Below, piece by piece: positions 39,688-44,718 of a DNA stretch of 64,000 bases. The notes beneath the pieces were generated by a model. That model was not told where the DNA came from, did not search any database, and saw nothing but the letters and a program-made list of their open reading frames with translations. The stretch is from positions 1 through 64,000 of the forward strand of contig NZ_RQXT01000010.1 of NCBI RefSeq assembly GCF_003863365.1, in the 5' to 3' direction. Every line of letters starts with the position of its first letter. The first letter of the stretch is position 1. The translations under genes and the position numbers were made by a program. This DNA comes from Mesorhizobium tamadayense. GTDB lineage: Bacteria > Pseudomonadota > Alphaproteobacteria > Rhizobiales > Rhizobiaceae.

Positions 39688-39707
39688 CGATGGTACCGTT
39701 GGCTGGG
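39688..39707 (+). repeat. Proximal att-like repeat, 3' end of tRNA-His
   Basis: Covers the CCA end, A73 and the start of the acceptor/T-arm of tRNA-His. It matches 33460-33479 at 18/20 positions (differences at the 4th and 14th bases). Together the two copies bound a 6.2-kb segment with different composition. Confidence 0.65.
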
Positions 39708-39767
39708 ATCGAACCAGCGACCTCCGGATCCACAATCCGGCGCTCTAACCAGCTGAGCTACAACGGC
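39691..39767 (-). tRNA. tRNA-His (GTG), lacking G-1
   Basis: Read on the minus strand: acceptor GCCGTTG pairs with CAACGGT (G1-U72 wobble), then discriminator A73 and an encoded CCA. The D-arm is GCTCAGCTGGTTAGAGC, the anticodon stem CCGGA/TCCGG with loop TTGTGGA, and the T-arm GCTGG-TTCGATC-CCAGC. The anticodon GTG is at 39731-39733. The base before G1 is T, so the nearly universal G-1 (normally paired with C73) is not encoded; A73 and U72 replace it. This is known for a clade of alphaproteobacteria and matches the HisRS type at 1896-3434. Its 3' end forms one boundary of the accessory island. Confidence 0.97.
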
Positions 39768-39916
39768 ACATCCGCCTGAGCGCAAACCGAGGAGAAATCA
39801 TTCTCCGCGTCCGCTCTGTCATCGGCGATGCGTCCAATACGGGCTATCGGAGTCTAATTCAAGGCCTTTGATTAGGCAAAGATCGGATGAGCGAGCCCGC
39901 TCAATTCCGAGTGGGC

Positions 39917-40028
39917 AAAAGAAAAGGCCGGCGGGAGGAGGTGCCGGCCTTTTCCTGTTACGAGCCAGCGGGAGGAGGAGCTGGCTGGTCACCCCGGAGA
40001 GCAAAGGGAGGAGGTTTCACACTCCGGG
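39917..40028 (-). ncRNA. Triple CCUCCUCCC-loop RNA (cuckoo/CcsR/MmgR-like)
   Basis: The minus strand shows three consecutive hairpins, each with CCTCCTCCC in the loop. The first has 7-bp arms 40022-40028 and 39993-39999 and motif 40006-40014. The second has 7-bp arms 39980-39986 and 39963-39969 and a 10-nt loop. The third has 11-bp arms 39943-39953 and 39922-39932 and a 10-nt loop. The third is followed by TTTTCTTTT, making it an intrinsic terminator. Small RNAs exposing CCUCCUCCC in paired loops are known in Rhodobacter (CcsR) and rhizobia (MmgR). It lies 82 bases after the phasin stop on the same strand, so it may be a processed phasin 3' UTR or an independent transcript. The rest of 39768-40110 shows nothing further. 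Confidence 0.85.
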
Positions 40029-40110
40029 TATTCGTTTGATCAATTCGTCGCACATCTATTTGTCTGATGAAATGCGACGTTTTGATGCATCGTTGAGTTG
40101 CGCCTGAATA

Positions 40111-40575
40111 TCAGGCCGCCTTGATGTCCTTGAACGCCTTTTCGAAAGCGGTCTTCACCGGCTTCGAGACGTCCTCGACCGCCTTGGAAGCGACGGCCTG
40201 AAAGTCCTTGGCCTGCTCGACGGCCATCTCGGCGCCCTTGCGCAGGAAGGCGGTCTGCAGCTCGACGACTTCCGACAGCGTCTTGGCGCCGACCAGGGCT
40301 TCGAGATGCGAGAAGTTGGCCTCGGCATTGGCGCGCAGGATGGCGATGGTCTTCAGCGAGACATCGCCGGAAACGGTCTTGGCGGTCTCGTAGGTCGACT
40401 CCAGAACCTTCTGGGTCTCCTCGGCGCCGGTCTTCAGCTTGGCATAGGCCTCTTTCGACTGCTCAACGCCCTTTTCGGCGAAGGCGCGGATCTGGTCGGT
40501 GGCCTTGGAGGCGTCGAAGCTCGGGAATTCCACGTTCTCGATGGTCTCAGAAGTCTTGGTGGTCGTCTTAGACAT
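40111..40575 (-). CDS. phaP: Phasin (PHB granule-associated protein)
   Basis: Phasin_2-type protein of 154 residues that coats polyhydroxybutyrate granules. It is fully helical and amphipathic with no cysteine: FPSFDASKATDQIRAFAEKG, the typical VEQSKEAYAKLKTGAEETQ, then repeated heptad-like Ala/Lys/Glu segments (EALVGAKTLSEVVELQTAF). I chose ATG 40575 (MSKTTTKTSE); the frame is open much further upstream, antisense to cbrA, but this is a high-GC artefact. A promoter with PhaR-like operators lies upstream, a CCUCCUCCC RNA directly downstream, and acsA2 nearby, consistent with a PHB locus as in S. meliloti (phaP1, cbrA and acsA2 neighbours, from memory). Confidence 0.95.
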   Translation of the reverse strand: MSKTTTKTSETIENVEFPSFDASKATDQIRAFAEKGVEQSKEAYAKLKTGAEETQKVLESTYETAKTVSGDVSLKTIAILRANAEANFSHLEALVGAKTLSEVVELQTAFLRKGAEMAVEQAKDFQAVASKAVEDVSKPVKTAFEKAFKDIKAA

Positions 40576-40635
40576 TTTCCAACCTTTCAGCGGCAGCGGC
40601 TTTGACAGAAAGCCGTCTCGTTCATGTATGATGGC

Positions 40636-40664
40636 AATATAAAGGCATTTTTTGTGCATTGCAA
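40636..40664 (-). promoter_or_regulatory. Phasin promoter (-35 TTGCAA, -10 TATATT)
   Basis: On the minus strand TTGCAA (40664-40659) and TATATT (40641-40636) are separated by exactly 17 bases, close to the vegetative sigma consensus, with initiation expected near 40628 and a leader of about 50 bases to the phasin ATG. The region is strikingly AT-rich against its surroundings. Confidence 0.75.
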
Positions 40665-40684
40665 TATCTTTGTTGCACTGCACC
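40654..40684. promoter_or_regulatory. Paired PhaR-like operators
   Basis: GTGCATTGCAAT (40654-40665) and TTGCACTGCACC (40673-40684) share a TGCAnTGCA-like core at 19-bp spacing, nearly two helical turns. The first overlaps the -35 box. PhaR, the PHB-sensing repressor of phasin genes in Paracoccus and rhizobia, binds TGC/GCA-rich inverted sites, so it is the natural candidate. Confidence 0.65.
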
Positions 40685-40772
40685 ATAAAAATCGCCCTGC
40701 CATTAACCACGAGCCCAGAGATTTCGGTCGTTGCACGGCATGGCTTGTGGACCTTCGCCCCGTACGCTTTTA

Positions 40773-40788
40773 TTAACAAAGCGTTAAC
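40773..40788 (+). promoter_or_regulatory. Consensus CtrA-binding box upstream of cbrA
   Basis: TTAA-CAAAGCG-TTAAC matches the full CtrA consensus TTAA-N7-TTAAC without mismatch. It ends 33 bases before the kinase ATG, in the intergenic region shared with phasin. CbrA-type kinases act on DivK and thereby on CtrA, so this would close a regulatory loop. Confidence 0.7.
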
Positions 40789-40821
40789 AGAAACGCCCGA
40801 TTCCGGAGGGTTCGCCAGCGC

Positions 40822-43800
40822 ATGCCGCCTGAAAACTACTCCTTCCTCGACGTCGCCGTGCTCGACGCGGTGCGCCAGCGCTTCGCCGCCGGCGACGCGC
40901 TGGCCATATTGTCGGCCGACCTCGAGCAGGTGATCTGGGCCAACGGGCCAGGTGCTGCGGTGTTCGGCTATCCGGATATCGAGGCCATCATCGGCGCCTC
41001 GGCGCGGCTGCCGCTGATCGCCAGGCGGCAGATCATGGCGACCAGCGGCTTTCCGGAAATCGGCACCGACCGCGCCGTCACTGTTAGGCTGGCGACCGGC
41101 ATGGTGAGCCGCGCCGTCGGGTTGCTCGCCAGCGCGGTGACGATGCCGGACGGCGAAAGGGCGATCATGCTGGCGATGCCTGCGGCGCAGACCGGCTCGC
41201 GCAGCGCTGCCGAAATCGCCAGCCGCGCCATCGGCGGCCTCACCGAGGCCGGACATTTCATCGCCTTCGTCGACGCCCAAGGCCATGTCGAGGCCGCTTC
41301 GGAGGGTTTTGCGGCGCTCGGCATCAGGCCGGAGACGTTGGCTGCCTTGGTCGCGGACGTGGCGAGCGCGGAGGACCGTATCGTCAAGCGGCTTGTTCCG
41401 GGCGCAAGCACCTCCTACCCGGCCGGCTTTGCACGATTGACCGACGCGCGCCATCTCCTGGTGGTGATCGACGAAGACCAGCTCGACGGCCAGCAGGACG
41501 ACCAGCCTGACGGCGATCGCGCGGCAGCGCCGGAAAGCGCGCCCACCATCTCCGAAGACAAGAGTACCGCCGCTGAAGCCGAGCCGGCCCGGGAGAACGA
41601 TACCCGGGCCCCGGCGGTGACAGCGCGTGAAAAGGCGGACACGGTCCCGGCGACGGCTGCGGACGGCGCCCAGCCGACGGAAAAAACCGCGCCCAGGGCC
41701 GACCATCCACCGGATGCTGCCGAGGCAGGCAGGCAGGCAGCCGATGCCGGCCCCGCTCAGCATGACCATTGGTATTTCAACGCCGGCGGCGACGATGTGA
41801 GACGGCCGGAGACGCCGGCACAGGCCAAACCGACGGACGCCGCGGCCGAAAGCCGGCAGGATATCGCCGAAACGGCGGCGGCAGAGCCGACCGCGGCCCG
41901 CAACATCGACCGTTCGGCGCCGCCGCTGCGTTTCGTCTGGCGCACTGATGCCGAAGGCAGGTTCAGCGCGCTGTCGCCGGAATTCGCCGACATTGTCGGC
42001 AAGGCGGCCGCCGATGTGATCGGCCGCCGCTTCAGGGACGTCGCCACCACTTTCGGTCTCGACGCATCGGGCGAGATCGCCACCCTGCTCGAACGGCGCG
42101 ATACCTGGTCCGGGCGCTCGGTGCTTTGGCCGGTGGCCGGCACGGACCTGAAGATCCCGGTCGATCTTGCGGCGCTGCCGGTCTATGGCCGCAGCCGCGC
42201 CTTCGAGGGATTTCGCGGCTTCGGCGTCGCGCGCAGCGCCGACGCGGTTGTCGACCCGGAAGCGCTCGGCAAGGCGCTTGTGCCCAACGGCGCCGCACCG
42301 ACCGAATCCGAACCTGCAGCCGAGCAACCGGCGACCGAGCCACCGAAGCCTGCCGACCCGTTCCTGGGCGAAGTGCCGGCGCTGACGATCGTGCCGAAGC
42401 CGGAGCGGCGCTATGCCGACAAGGTGATCCGGCTGGCCGAGCACAGGCAGCCAGCCAATGACAAGCAGCCGGGAACCGGCAAGCCGGGAAGCGATAAGCC
42501 AGGAAGCGAGAGGGGCCTGTCGATCCTCGAGCGCAGCGCCTTTCGCGAGATCGGCGAGCGGCTGCGGAAGGACAGTTCCAGCCCGGCCGAGCCGCCGGCC
42601 GGCAGCACGGAAAAGCAAGCCGATGCGACTTCAGCCGCCGACAAGGCCGGTGCCGGAGCCGAGCAACCGAAGGCCAGCGAGAGGACGGCCGGCGAATCCG
42701 ATCTGACGGCGCCTCAACGGACCGGGCAGGGGCCCACCGCGCGCGACGATAACGAAACGCGGGCCGAGGCCATCGAAACGGCGGAGGCGGAGACCGAGGC
42801 GGAAGATCAGAAGGACCTGGCTCGGCTCGACGGCATCGACGACGCTTCCGAGGCGGCCGTTGGGGAAGACGAGACGCCACCCGCGTCCGGTTCGCTGCTC
42901 AACTATGCCGCGAGCCAAGCGCCGCATCCAGAGACCCGCCAAACCAAAGCGACGGATAAGGGGGCCGAGCCGAAGGATGAACGGCCGGCCGAGGCGCCTG
43001 CCGCTGACGCAGGCGCAGATGACGACAGCATGACCGCCGACGATTTTCGCGATGCGCAAGACAGCGAGGACTGGGCCGGCTCCGACAGCGCCCTGCCCGA
43101 AGCTGGACAGCCCGCCGAGCCGAAAGCGGCGCCGCCGGAACGGCCGCGCCTCAAGGCGCCGACGCTCAAGCTTGAAGGCTTCGTGCCGTCGGCTTTCTCC
43201 ACCGGGGAGGAAGGCAGGGCGCCCGATACCTCCATCCTCGCCAGGCTGCCTGTGCCGCTGCTCATCCATTCCGGCGATGTGCTGCATTATGCCAATGAGG
43301 CGTTCCTCGAGCTCACCGGCTACGACGCGCTGAAAGACCTCGCCGATGCCGGCGGGCTCGGCGCGCTGTTCGCCGACCATTACGCCGACGGTGGCGAGGC
43401 CGACGAAAGCGACCGTTCCTTGAAGCTTCAGACTCGCCAGGGCCAGGAATTCCCGATCGATGCGCTCCTGCGTTCCGTGCCGTGGCGCGGCGGCAAGGCG
43501 CTGATGCTGGTGGTGCGCCGCTCGGGCGAGGACGAGGCGCCCGCGGCGCATTTCAGCGCCGCGAATGACGAGCCGAGCCAGCAGCCGGATGTTTCCGAGC
43601 TGAAGTCGCGCATCGCCGAAATGCGCACCATCATCGACACCGCCACCGACGGCGTGGTGCTGATCGGCCGCGACGGCAATATCCGTTCGATCAGCCGGCC
43701 GGCGGAGGCGCTGTTCGGCTTCGACAGCGACGAGATCGCAGGCAAGCCCTTTGCCTCGCTGTTCGCCATAGAGAGCCAGCGCGCGGCGCGCGACTATCTC

Positions 43801-44718
43801 GCCGGCCTTTCCGAACCAGGTGTGGCGAGCGTCCTCAACGACGGGCGCGAGGTCATCGGCCGCGAGGCGCAGGGGCGCTTCATCCCGCTGTTCATGACCA
43901 TCGGCAGCCTGCCCAACGAAAGCGGCTTCTGTGCCGTCGTGCGCGACATCACGCAGTGGAAACGGGCCGAGGAAGACCTTACCCAGGCCCGCGCCGTGGC
44001 CGAGCGCGCCTCCTCGCAGAAGACGGATTTCCTCGCCCGCATCAGCCATGAGATCCGTACGCCGCTCAACGCCATCATCGGTTTTTCCGAACTGATGGTG
44101 GACGAGAAGTTCGGCCCGGTCGCCAACGACCGCTACCGCGACTACCTGCGCGACATCAACCGCTCCGGCAATCACGTGCTCGACCTCGTCAACGACCTGC
44201 TCGACATCTCCAAGATCGAAGCCGGCCAGCAGGAGATGGCCTACGAGGCCGTGTCGCTCAACGACACGCTGGCCGAAACGGTGGCGATGATGCAGCCGCA
44301 GGCCAACCGTGAGCGCGTCATCATCCGCTCGAGCTTCGCCTCACGGCTGCCGGAAGTGGTGGCGGACTTGAGAAGCGTGCGCCAGATCGCGCTGAACATC
44401 CTGTCCAATGCCATCCGCTACACGCAGGCCGGCGGACAGGTGATCGTGTCCACCGCCTACGAGGCCTCCGGCGACGTCGTCATGCGCGTGCGCGACACCG
44501 GCATCGGCATGACCCCGGCTGAGGTCGAGCAGGCGCTGAAGCCGTTCAAGCAGATCAATGCGCTGAAACGCGGGCGCGGCGACGGCACCGGCCTCGGGCT
44601 GCCGCTGACCAAGGCGATGGTGGAGGCCAATCGTGCCCGCTTCACCATCGCCTCGACGCCCGGCGAAGGCACGCTGGTCGAGATCGCCTTCCCCTCGACG
44701 CGGGTGCTGGCCGAATAA
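40822..44718 (+). CDS. cbrA: CbrA/PdhS-type PAS sensor histidine kinase
   Basis: A cytoplasmic kinase of 1298 residues without transmembrane helices. An N-terminal PAS-like domain (~1-130) is followed by a Pro/Ala/Glu-rich, probably disordered region (~220-355), PAS (~365-470), a second long disordered region (~480-790), PAS (~805-900) and PAS (~930-1050). The kinase core has H-box FLARISHEIRTPLNAI with phospho-acceptor His1076, N-box NILSNAIRYTQ, DTGIGM and GDGTGLGLPL. The H-box and following GFSELMVDEKFGP segment fit the DivJ/PleC/PdhS/CbrA group, which controls DivK and CtrA. Synteny with phasin and acsA2 matches S. meliloti cbrA as I recall it. Confidence 0.88.
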   Translation: MPPENYSFLDVAVLDAVRQRFAAGDALAILSADLEQVIWANGPGAAVFGYPDIEAIIGASARLPLIARRQIMATSGFPEIGTDRAVTVRLATGMVSRAVGLLASAVTMPDGERAIMLAMPAAQTGSRSAAEIASRAIGGLTEAGHFIAFVDAQGHVEAASEGFAALGIRPETLAALVADVASAEDRIVKRLVPGASTSYPAGFARLTDARHLLVVIDEDQLDGQQDDQPDGDRAAAPESAPTISEDKSTAAEAEPARENDTRAPAVTAREKADTVPATAADGAQPTEKTAPRADHPPDAAEAGRQAADAGPAQHDHWYFNAGGDDVRRPETPAQAKPTDAAAESRQDIAETAAAEPTAARNIDRSAPPLRFVWRTDAEGRFSALSPEFADIVGKAAADVIGRRFRDVATTFGLDASGEIATLLERRDTWSGRSVLWPVAGTDLKIPVDLAALPVYGRSRAFEGFRGFGVARSADAVVDPEALGKALVPNGAAPTESEPAAEQPATEPPKPADPFLGEVPALTIVPKPERRYADKVIRLAEHRQPANDKQPGTGKPGSDKPGSERGLSILERSAFREIGERLRKDSSSPAEPPAGSTEKQADATSAADKAGAGAEQPKASERTAGESDLTAPQRTGQGPTARDDNETRAEAIETAEAETEAEDQKDLARLDGIDDASEAAVGEDETPPASGSLLNYAASQAPHPETRQTKATDKGAEPKDERPAEAPAADAGADDDSMTADDFRDAQDSEDWAGSDSALPEAGQPAEPKAAPPERPRLKAPTLKLEGFVPSAFSTGEEGRAPDTSILARLPVPLLIHSGDVLHYANEAFLELTGYDALKDLADAGGLGALFADHYADGGEADESDRSLKLQTRQGQEFPIDALLRSVPWRGGKALMLVVRRSGEDEAPAAHFSAANDEPSQQPDVSELKSRIAEMRTIIDTATDGVVLIGRDGNIRSISRPAEALFGFDSDEIAGKPFASLFAIESQRAARDYLAGLSEPGVASVLNDGREVIGREAQGRFIPLFMTIGSLPNESGFCAVVRDITQWKRAEEDLTQARAVAERASSQKTDFLARISHEIRTPLNAIIGFSELMVDEKFGPVANDRYRDYLRDINRSGNHVLDLVNDLLDISKIEAGQQEMAYEAVSLNDTLAETVAMMQPQANRERVIIRSSFASRLPEVVADLRSVRQIALNILSNAIRYTQAGGQVIVSTAYEASGDVVMRVRDTGIGMTPAEVEQALKPFKQINALKRGRGDGTGLGLPLTKAMVEANRARFTIASTPGEGTLVEIAFPSTRVLAE

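Follow-up and report, generated by a model that had tools for sequence, protein, structure and literature searches.

The 64,000-nucleotide stretch of Mesorhizobium tamadayense DNA analyzed here (the window) carries on its minus strand a three-hairpin element that is an ordinary member of the known ar14 family (RF02344), the NfeR1/SmelA075 "cuckoo" group. Judged from sequence, this anti-Shine-Dalgarno RNA probably forms the 3' UTR and the terminator of a phasin mRNA that is under the control of PhaR. To our knowledge, the multiple ar14/cuckoo copies found per genome have no settled division of labour. The link to a phasin gene, together with the PhaR-type sites, offers a testable reason for some of these copies, namely that they may report the state of carbon storage to translation.

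The RNA spans positions 39917 to 40032 of the minus strand, and its predicted fold places all three copies of the motif CCUCCUCCC in hairpin loops. Hairpin 1 (39993–40028, motif 40006–40014) is comprised of 7+5 bp with a 1x1 internal loop. Hairpin 2 (39963–39986, motif 39970–39978) has 7 bp with an outer 2+2 bp. Hairpin 3 (39919–39956, motif 39933–39941) has 14 bp and is followed by a T-rich tract, which makes it an intrinsic-terminator type. A preliminary description of this DNA, made from the letters alone, had already seen three consecutive CCUCCUCCC hairpins on the minus strand and a terminator-type last hairpin. Motif search and folding of 40032–39917 bear out both points, while the stem lengths it gave (7, 7 and 11 bp) were only approximate. 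A simple terminator scan of 39800–40800 gave no site because it accepted loops of 3–8 nt only. The motif CCTCCTCCC occurs three times in the window, every time on the minus strand. This count alone is unremarkable (0.78 expected; three or more in 5 of 100 shuffles), and the rare feature is the clustering of the three motifs within 82 nt and a single fold. The minimum free energy of the minus strand from 40032 to 39917 is -55 kcal/mol, compared with a shuffle mean of -34 (z -6.18), and none of 200 shuffles was equally low.

Against the RF02344 model, the window RNA scores 74 bits (gathering score 58.8) over the full length of the model (1–123). Members of ar14 are described as having three hairpins with an identical CCUCCUCCC in each (PMC10746234), and forms with two, three and four hairpins have been placed in one group (PMC3927594). 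The window RNA has the same architecture, with three hairpins that each leave CCUCCUCCC unpaired in the predicted folds and with divergent stems around unchanged loops. The recognition of a cuckoo-type anti-Shine-Dalgarno RNA thus stands, on the RF02344 match and on the loops. The novelty once claimed for three loops falls, because three CCUCCUCCC loops with variable stems are a published form of ar14 (PMC10746234, PMC3927594) and the RF02344 match exceeds the cut-off. The CcsR1 model (RF02791) has no match in the window at its gathering score. A general sigma70 scan of the spacer between phasin and RNA gave no site; the promoter type CTTAGAC-N17-CTATAT is a trait of NfeR1 homologues and not a criterion for the family. 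The genome of M. tamadayense contains five ar14 matches over the cut-off, one decayed match of 40 bits and three more that are no better than chance (E 0.12–0.30). Matches at E <= 0.001 are found in 37 of 37 Mesorhizobium genomes searched, this one included. A covariance-model search in relatives, suggested in the preliminary description, has thereby recovered ar14 in all genomes of the genus that were searched, and it did so at all 20 phasin loci of other genera that were picked for having hairpins (E <= 6.3e-8 in every case, 17 over the cut-off).

The preliminary description had read the invariant loop on varying stems as selection on the loop, and had named loops not conserved in close relatives as the observation that would speak against its proposal. 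In an alignment of 79 Mesorhizobium sequences, conservation is 100% for the loops and 89, 99 and 96% for the stems of hairpins 1, 2 and 3, and each of the 78 relatives that could be tested has all three loops exact. Double changes within Mesorhizobium affect only 4 of 37 pairs, and stem variation is greatest in hairpin 1. In a set of 17 phasin-linked RNAs that covers 16 genera, pairing is kept through double changes at 21 of 32 pairs. Hairpin 1 is again the least regular, with single pairs broken in up to 5 of the 17 sequences. When sequences were folded singly, 50 of 51 loops left six or more of the 7 core nucleotides unpaired; only hairpin 1 of G163 fell short, with 3 of 7.

The proposed host of the RNA is a phasin gene (Phasin_2, PF09361, Pfam E 6.2e-15) at 40111–40575 on the minus strand. 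It encodes 154 amino acids, and the nearest relatives of the protein are phasins of Mesorhizobium (95% to M. silamurunense). From 167 confirmed Mesorhizobium phasin loci the best 80 were sampled, of which 78 were testable because contig ends cut the other two. Three exact 9-mers follow the phasin gene at near-fixed spacing in 78 of 78. In the family at large, a phasin match was found in 88 of 121 genomes. The non-Mesorhizobium set comprises 84 loci from 81 genomes, the matches of G061, G064, G072, G113 and G168 being left out. At least one motif hairpin lies within 200 nt past the phasin stop at 34 loci, in 34 of these 81 genomes (32 genera), compared with 1 of 270 control pieces. Such a tail has three hairpins in 14 cases, two in 11 and one in 9. 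Its presence tracks the relatedness of the phasin: it occurs at 30 of the 38 loci whose phasin identity is at least 58% (a class in which L206, at 72%, and L207, at 70%, were counted by hand) and at 4 of the 46 below. Since no such hairpin was found at the other 8 of 38 and 42 of 46 loci, phasins do not require the tail. Phasin paralogues at three loci of the M. tamadayense genome and one of G012 are also without it. The meaning attached early on to a position in or after a phasin 3' UTR is therefore upheld, by linkage at all 78 testable loci of Mesorhizobium and in 34 of the 81 genomes from elsewhere in the family. A tRNA-His gene (39691–39767, minus strand) lies downstream of the RNA on the same strand and serves as a landmark of synteny outside the proposed mechanism. 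A tRNA is found near the phasin at 17 of 20 loci scanned, and two of the remaining three had just 600 nt of flank. On the other side, and divergent from the phasin gene, is a frame of 1298 amino acids on the plus strand (40822–44718) that by eye resembles a PAS/histidine kinase.

The phasin promoter looks PhaR-controlled, with PhaR binding predicted from its palindromes. A sigma70-like promoter, TTGCAA-17-TATATT, is located at 40636–40664 on the minus strand (9 of 12 matches, by consensus only), and it is the only promoter-like site in 39800–40800. Its -35-like hexamer is overlapped by a palindrome (40649–40669) that fits the strict S. meliloti PhaR motif, WNWDDNYGCRNYGCRNHHWNW (PMC12542648), and is the single occurrence of that motif in the window. 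The core of a further palindrome, at 40674–40682, lies 19 nt from the core of the strict one. In S. meliloti, phasin genes are reported to be repressed by PhaR and to have two copies of the motif around the -35 region (PMC12542648), and TGCRNYGCASMA is described as the binding site of PhaR of B. diazoefficiens (PMC6201568). Two cores are present in 80 of the 81 Mesorhizobium phasin promoters read (the window plus 80 loci) and three in the remaining one; the strict motif is found in 73. Genome-wide (7.53 Mb) the strict motif occurs 56 times, against 34 for a reversed control, so its specificity is only moderate. Of the other phasin genes in this genome, those at C112 and C249 have the strict motif and that at C261 is without it. 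To train a 17-nt PhaR matrix, 152 palindromes were taken from the phasin promoters of genera other than Mesorhizobium, and the 99th percentile of 780 control windows served as the threshold (a control rate of 1%). All 80 held-out Mesorhizobium phasin promoters score over this threshold.

That the RNA is a phasin 3' UTR is the most likely reading of its position. At the 25 non-Mesorhizobium loci with at least two hairpins, the first counted loop lies 29–98 nt past the phasin stop and in 22 of them at 29–48 nt. We infer a phasin 3' UTR from this gap, which leaves too little room for a separate promoter beyond the coding region. For a promoter within the phasin 3' end, inspection by eye showed no clear excess of codon conservation over the part upstream. 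The Mesorhizobium spacer is longer (first loop 85–99 nt past the stop; a gap of 78 nt after the phasin gene in the window). It holds a 17-nt NtrC-like dyad, TGC-N11-GCA (40073–40089, minus strand), which makes a second promoter possible in this genus. This leads to the main rival explanation, which we regard as rather unlikely: the RNA would be an independent ar14 gene that merely stands behind the phasin and is transcribed in Mesorhizobium from a spacer promoter of its own under NtrC. The long spacer would suit such a promoter and the dyad in it is sharply conserved, occurring in 77 of the 79 spacers from Mesorhizobium compared with 2.2% of shuffled ones, with a mean conservation of its columns of 94% against 70% in the remaining spacer. 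The NfeR1 promoter of S. meliloti is reported to have the same NtrC motif (PMC10746234). Moreover, some ar14 copies have neither a phasin nor a DUF1127 gene in front of them, so promoters of their own are expected there. However, the scan found no -35/-10 pair in the spacer of the window, conservation falls past the dyad with no conserved promoter-like block visible by eye, and the linkage persists in other genera, where a promoter would not fit into most of the gaps. The dyad could also act on read-through from the phasin gene instead, and read-through and an own promoter are mutually compatible modes. Two other descriptions of the spacer were rejected. An RNA hairpin CGTCGCA/TGCGACG loses its pairing in one Mesorhizobium clade that by eye keeps the dyad half-sites. 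An LsrB box (TGCA-N6-GCAT) does not fit the actual spacing of N10, and the NtrC motif TGC-N11-GCA does.

Three further explanations concern what the hairpins do. They might merely terminate or stabilize the phasin mRNA, with loops that are idle in trans, as the terminator-type hairpin 3 and the single counted hairpin in 9 of the 34 tail-bearing genomes outside Mesorhizobium could suggest. A stabilizer has no need of a fixed loop, yet the loops are fully conserved within the genus on changing stems, with compensation across genera, and those of NfeR1 are reported as proven seeds in S. meliloti (PMC10746234); we consider this explanation improbable. Less probable still is an MmgR-like RNA that chiefly controls the phasin itself. 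The RNA does adjoin the phasin gene, and phasins are affected by MmgR in S. meliloti (PMC7143759), but GGAGG is absent from the phasin start region. Direct pairing of the loop with that region was rejected as weak (-5.3 kcal/mol, compared with -18.1 for a perfect 9-mer). An inverted repeat could also fold on the plus strand, where it would present GGGAGGAGG. G-U pairs outnumber A-C mismatches by 42 to 5 in the 17 sequences and by 202 to 9 in the 79, which favours the minus strand as that of the RNA, and the ar14 match sits there as well; a functional plus strand is hardly to be believed.

If the RNA is indeed the 3' UTR of a PhaR-controlled phasin mRNA, its action may be pictured as a sequence of steps. 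As PHB accumulates, PhaR would be drawn to the granules, as described from work in S. meliloti, and its sequestration would release the phasin promoter and allow phasin mRNA to be made. By sequence and predicted fold, this mRNA would end in the three hairpins that expose CCUCCUCCC. An RNA of about 116 nt might then be cleaved off, by analogy with the CcsR RNAs that RNase E frees from the ccaF1 transcript (PMC10253847), or it might be active while attached. The CCUCCUCCC loops would pair with Shine-Dalgarno sites of the GGAGG type; for NfeR1 of S. meliloti the loops are reported as proven seeds, and reporter assays place silencing at the translation start region of mRNAs (PMC10746234). Pairing would presumably lower the translation of transport and metabolic mRNAs, and granule formation would thereby be coupled to damped nutrient uptake. 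The NtrC-like dyad in the Mesorhizobium spacer may add nitrogen control. If this is true, the phasin mRNA would be a dual-function mRNA that yields both a granule coat protein and a regulator damping nutrient uptake, and RNAs of the ar14 family would join the PhaR regulon. Granule formation itself would directly produce a blocker of ribosome-binding sites, which would tie carbon storage to protein synthesis.

A perfect 9-nt complement 3–10 nt ahead of an ATG occurs four times in the genome of M. tamadayense and once in the control. Two of these four pattern matches precede frames of 33 and 31 codons only, and the perfect 9-nt sites were rejected as a set of targets. One precedes a long frame, by eye an ABC-transporter-type ATPase, which is an anecdote. 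With so few perfect sites, the proposed targets depend on analogy and on pairing shorter than 9 nt.

It is about an even call whether a set of cuckoo RNAs in genomes of the family answers to PhaR, with one in the phasin mRNA and others behind putative PhaR operators of their own or ones upstream of DUF1127 genes. Among the matches listed, three ar14 loci of this genome have strict motifs (phasin, C23 and C258), and a further one is at C265. The motif of the C23 pair is about 460 nt upstream, ahead of DUF1127 genes; those of the C265 and C258 copies are directly in front; the C249 copy is without one. The PhaR matrix recognizes a site at 26 of 29 Mesorhizobium tandem ar14 loci (between -520 and -370), 12 of 22 fetched standalone copies from other genera with the phasin tail, 9 of 30 ar14 copies from 14 genomes without it, and 1 of 20 of the Mesorhizobium C249-type set, namely L270, which resembles the C265 type. 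The copies scored were the higher-scoring ar14 matches and not all of them. As they are both higher-scoring and mutually related, binomial values overstate the evidence. A DUF1127 frame was detected ahead of 27 of the 29 tandem loci, and a strict motif lies within 700 nt in 26. A PhaR-like site is absent from the C249-type copies and from L298–L300, the best-scoring NfeR1-like copies, so control by PhaR is not common to all copies.

The closest known counterparts are NfeR1/Smr14C2 and SmelA075 of the ar14 family, with which the window RNA shares three hairpins, identical CCUCCUCCC loops, variable stems, a terminator-type last hairpin and the occurrence of several copies per genome (five over the cut-off here). 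NfeR1 is reported to have its own sigma70 promoter and to be under LsrB and NtrC control (PMC10746234), whereas the window copy stands behind a phasin gene with PhaR-type sites and without a recognizable promoter of its own. The same loop motif is found in CcsR1-4/RS0680a of Rhodobacter sphaeroides (RF02791, CIN1 locus). CcsR1-4 are described as co-transcribed behind a DUF1127 gene (CcaF1) and released by RNase E (PMC10253847), and a protein-coding gene likewise appears to be the host here. In contrast to the window RNA, RS0680a has two hairpins (PMC3927594), and the host of CcsR is a DUF1127 gene and not a phasin. RF02791 matches 5 of the 20 phasin loci scanned, weakly (at most 35.6 bits vs 65.3). 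MmgR, to which the RNA had been likened, is a small RNA of the PHB circuit with a promoter bound by PhaR/AniA (PMC12542648). The analogy holds for position and topic only, since MmgR of S. meliloti is a distinct RNA, whose listed coordinates give a length of about 78 nt (PMC7143759). Of small RNAs, the 2025 S. meliloti PhaR paper names MmgR, and the words NfeR1 and sRNA are absent from its main text (PMC12542648). Judging by titles and abstract openings in full-text literature searches, the position in a phasin 3' UTR and the PhaR-type operators appear to be new.

Several smaller observations concern the other copies. The C23 locus (L001/L002, 100873–101614) contains, in this order, two consecutive DUF1127 genes, two consecutive ar14 RNAs and a frame that by eye resembles TrmFO. 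The first ar14 RNA begins 3 nt past the stop of the second DUF1127 gene, an arrangement that resembles ccaF1-CcsR (CIN1). The copies at C265 (L005) and C258 (L006) are standalone, with a PhaR palindrome at the presumed promoter at positions -40 and -34; the C258 copy is the decayed one (40 bits), and one intact 7-mer loop was seen in the scan. Most C249-type copies (L259–L278) have by eye a TGCACAGCAGCTATGCA-like element about 50–60 nt upstream of the RNA, which is near but not identical to the reported LsrB box of NfeR1, and akin forms precede many standalone ar14 copies of other genera. L313, L315, L319 and L327, from genera without the phasin tail, carry an extra CCTCCTCCC before the model start, as in the four-hairpin type, and a PhaR-like core about 85–87 nt upstream of that start. 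In S. meliloti, PhaR-like sites at 1667000–1666934 are reported for SMc02051, a small gene that is strongly raised without PhaR. By the coordinates in the two sources, these sites are about 490–560 nt downstream of the end of nfeR1 (1667613–1667492), apparently on the same strand (PMC12542648, PMC7143759).
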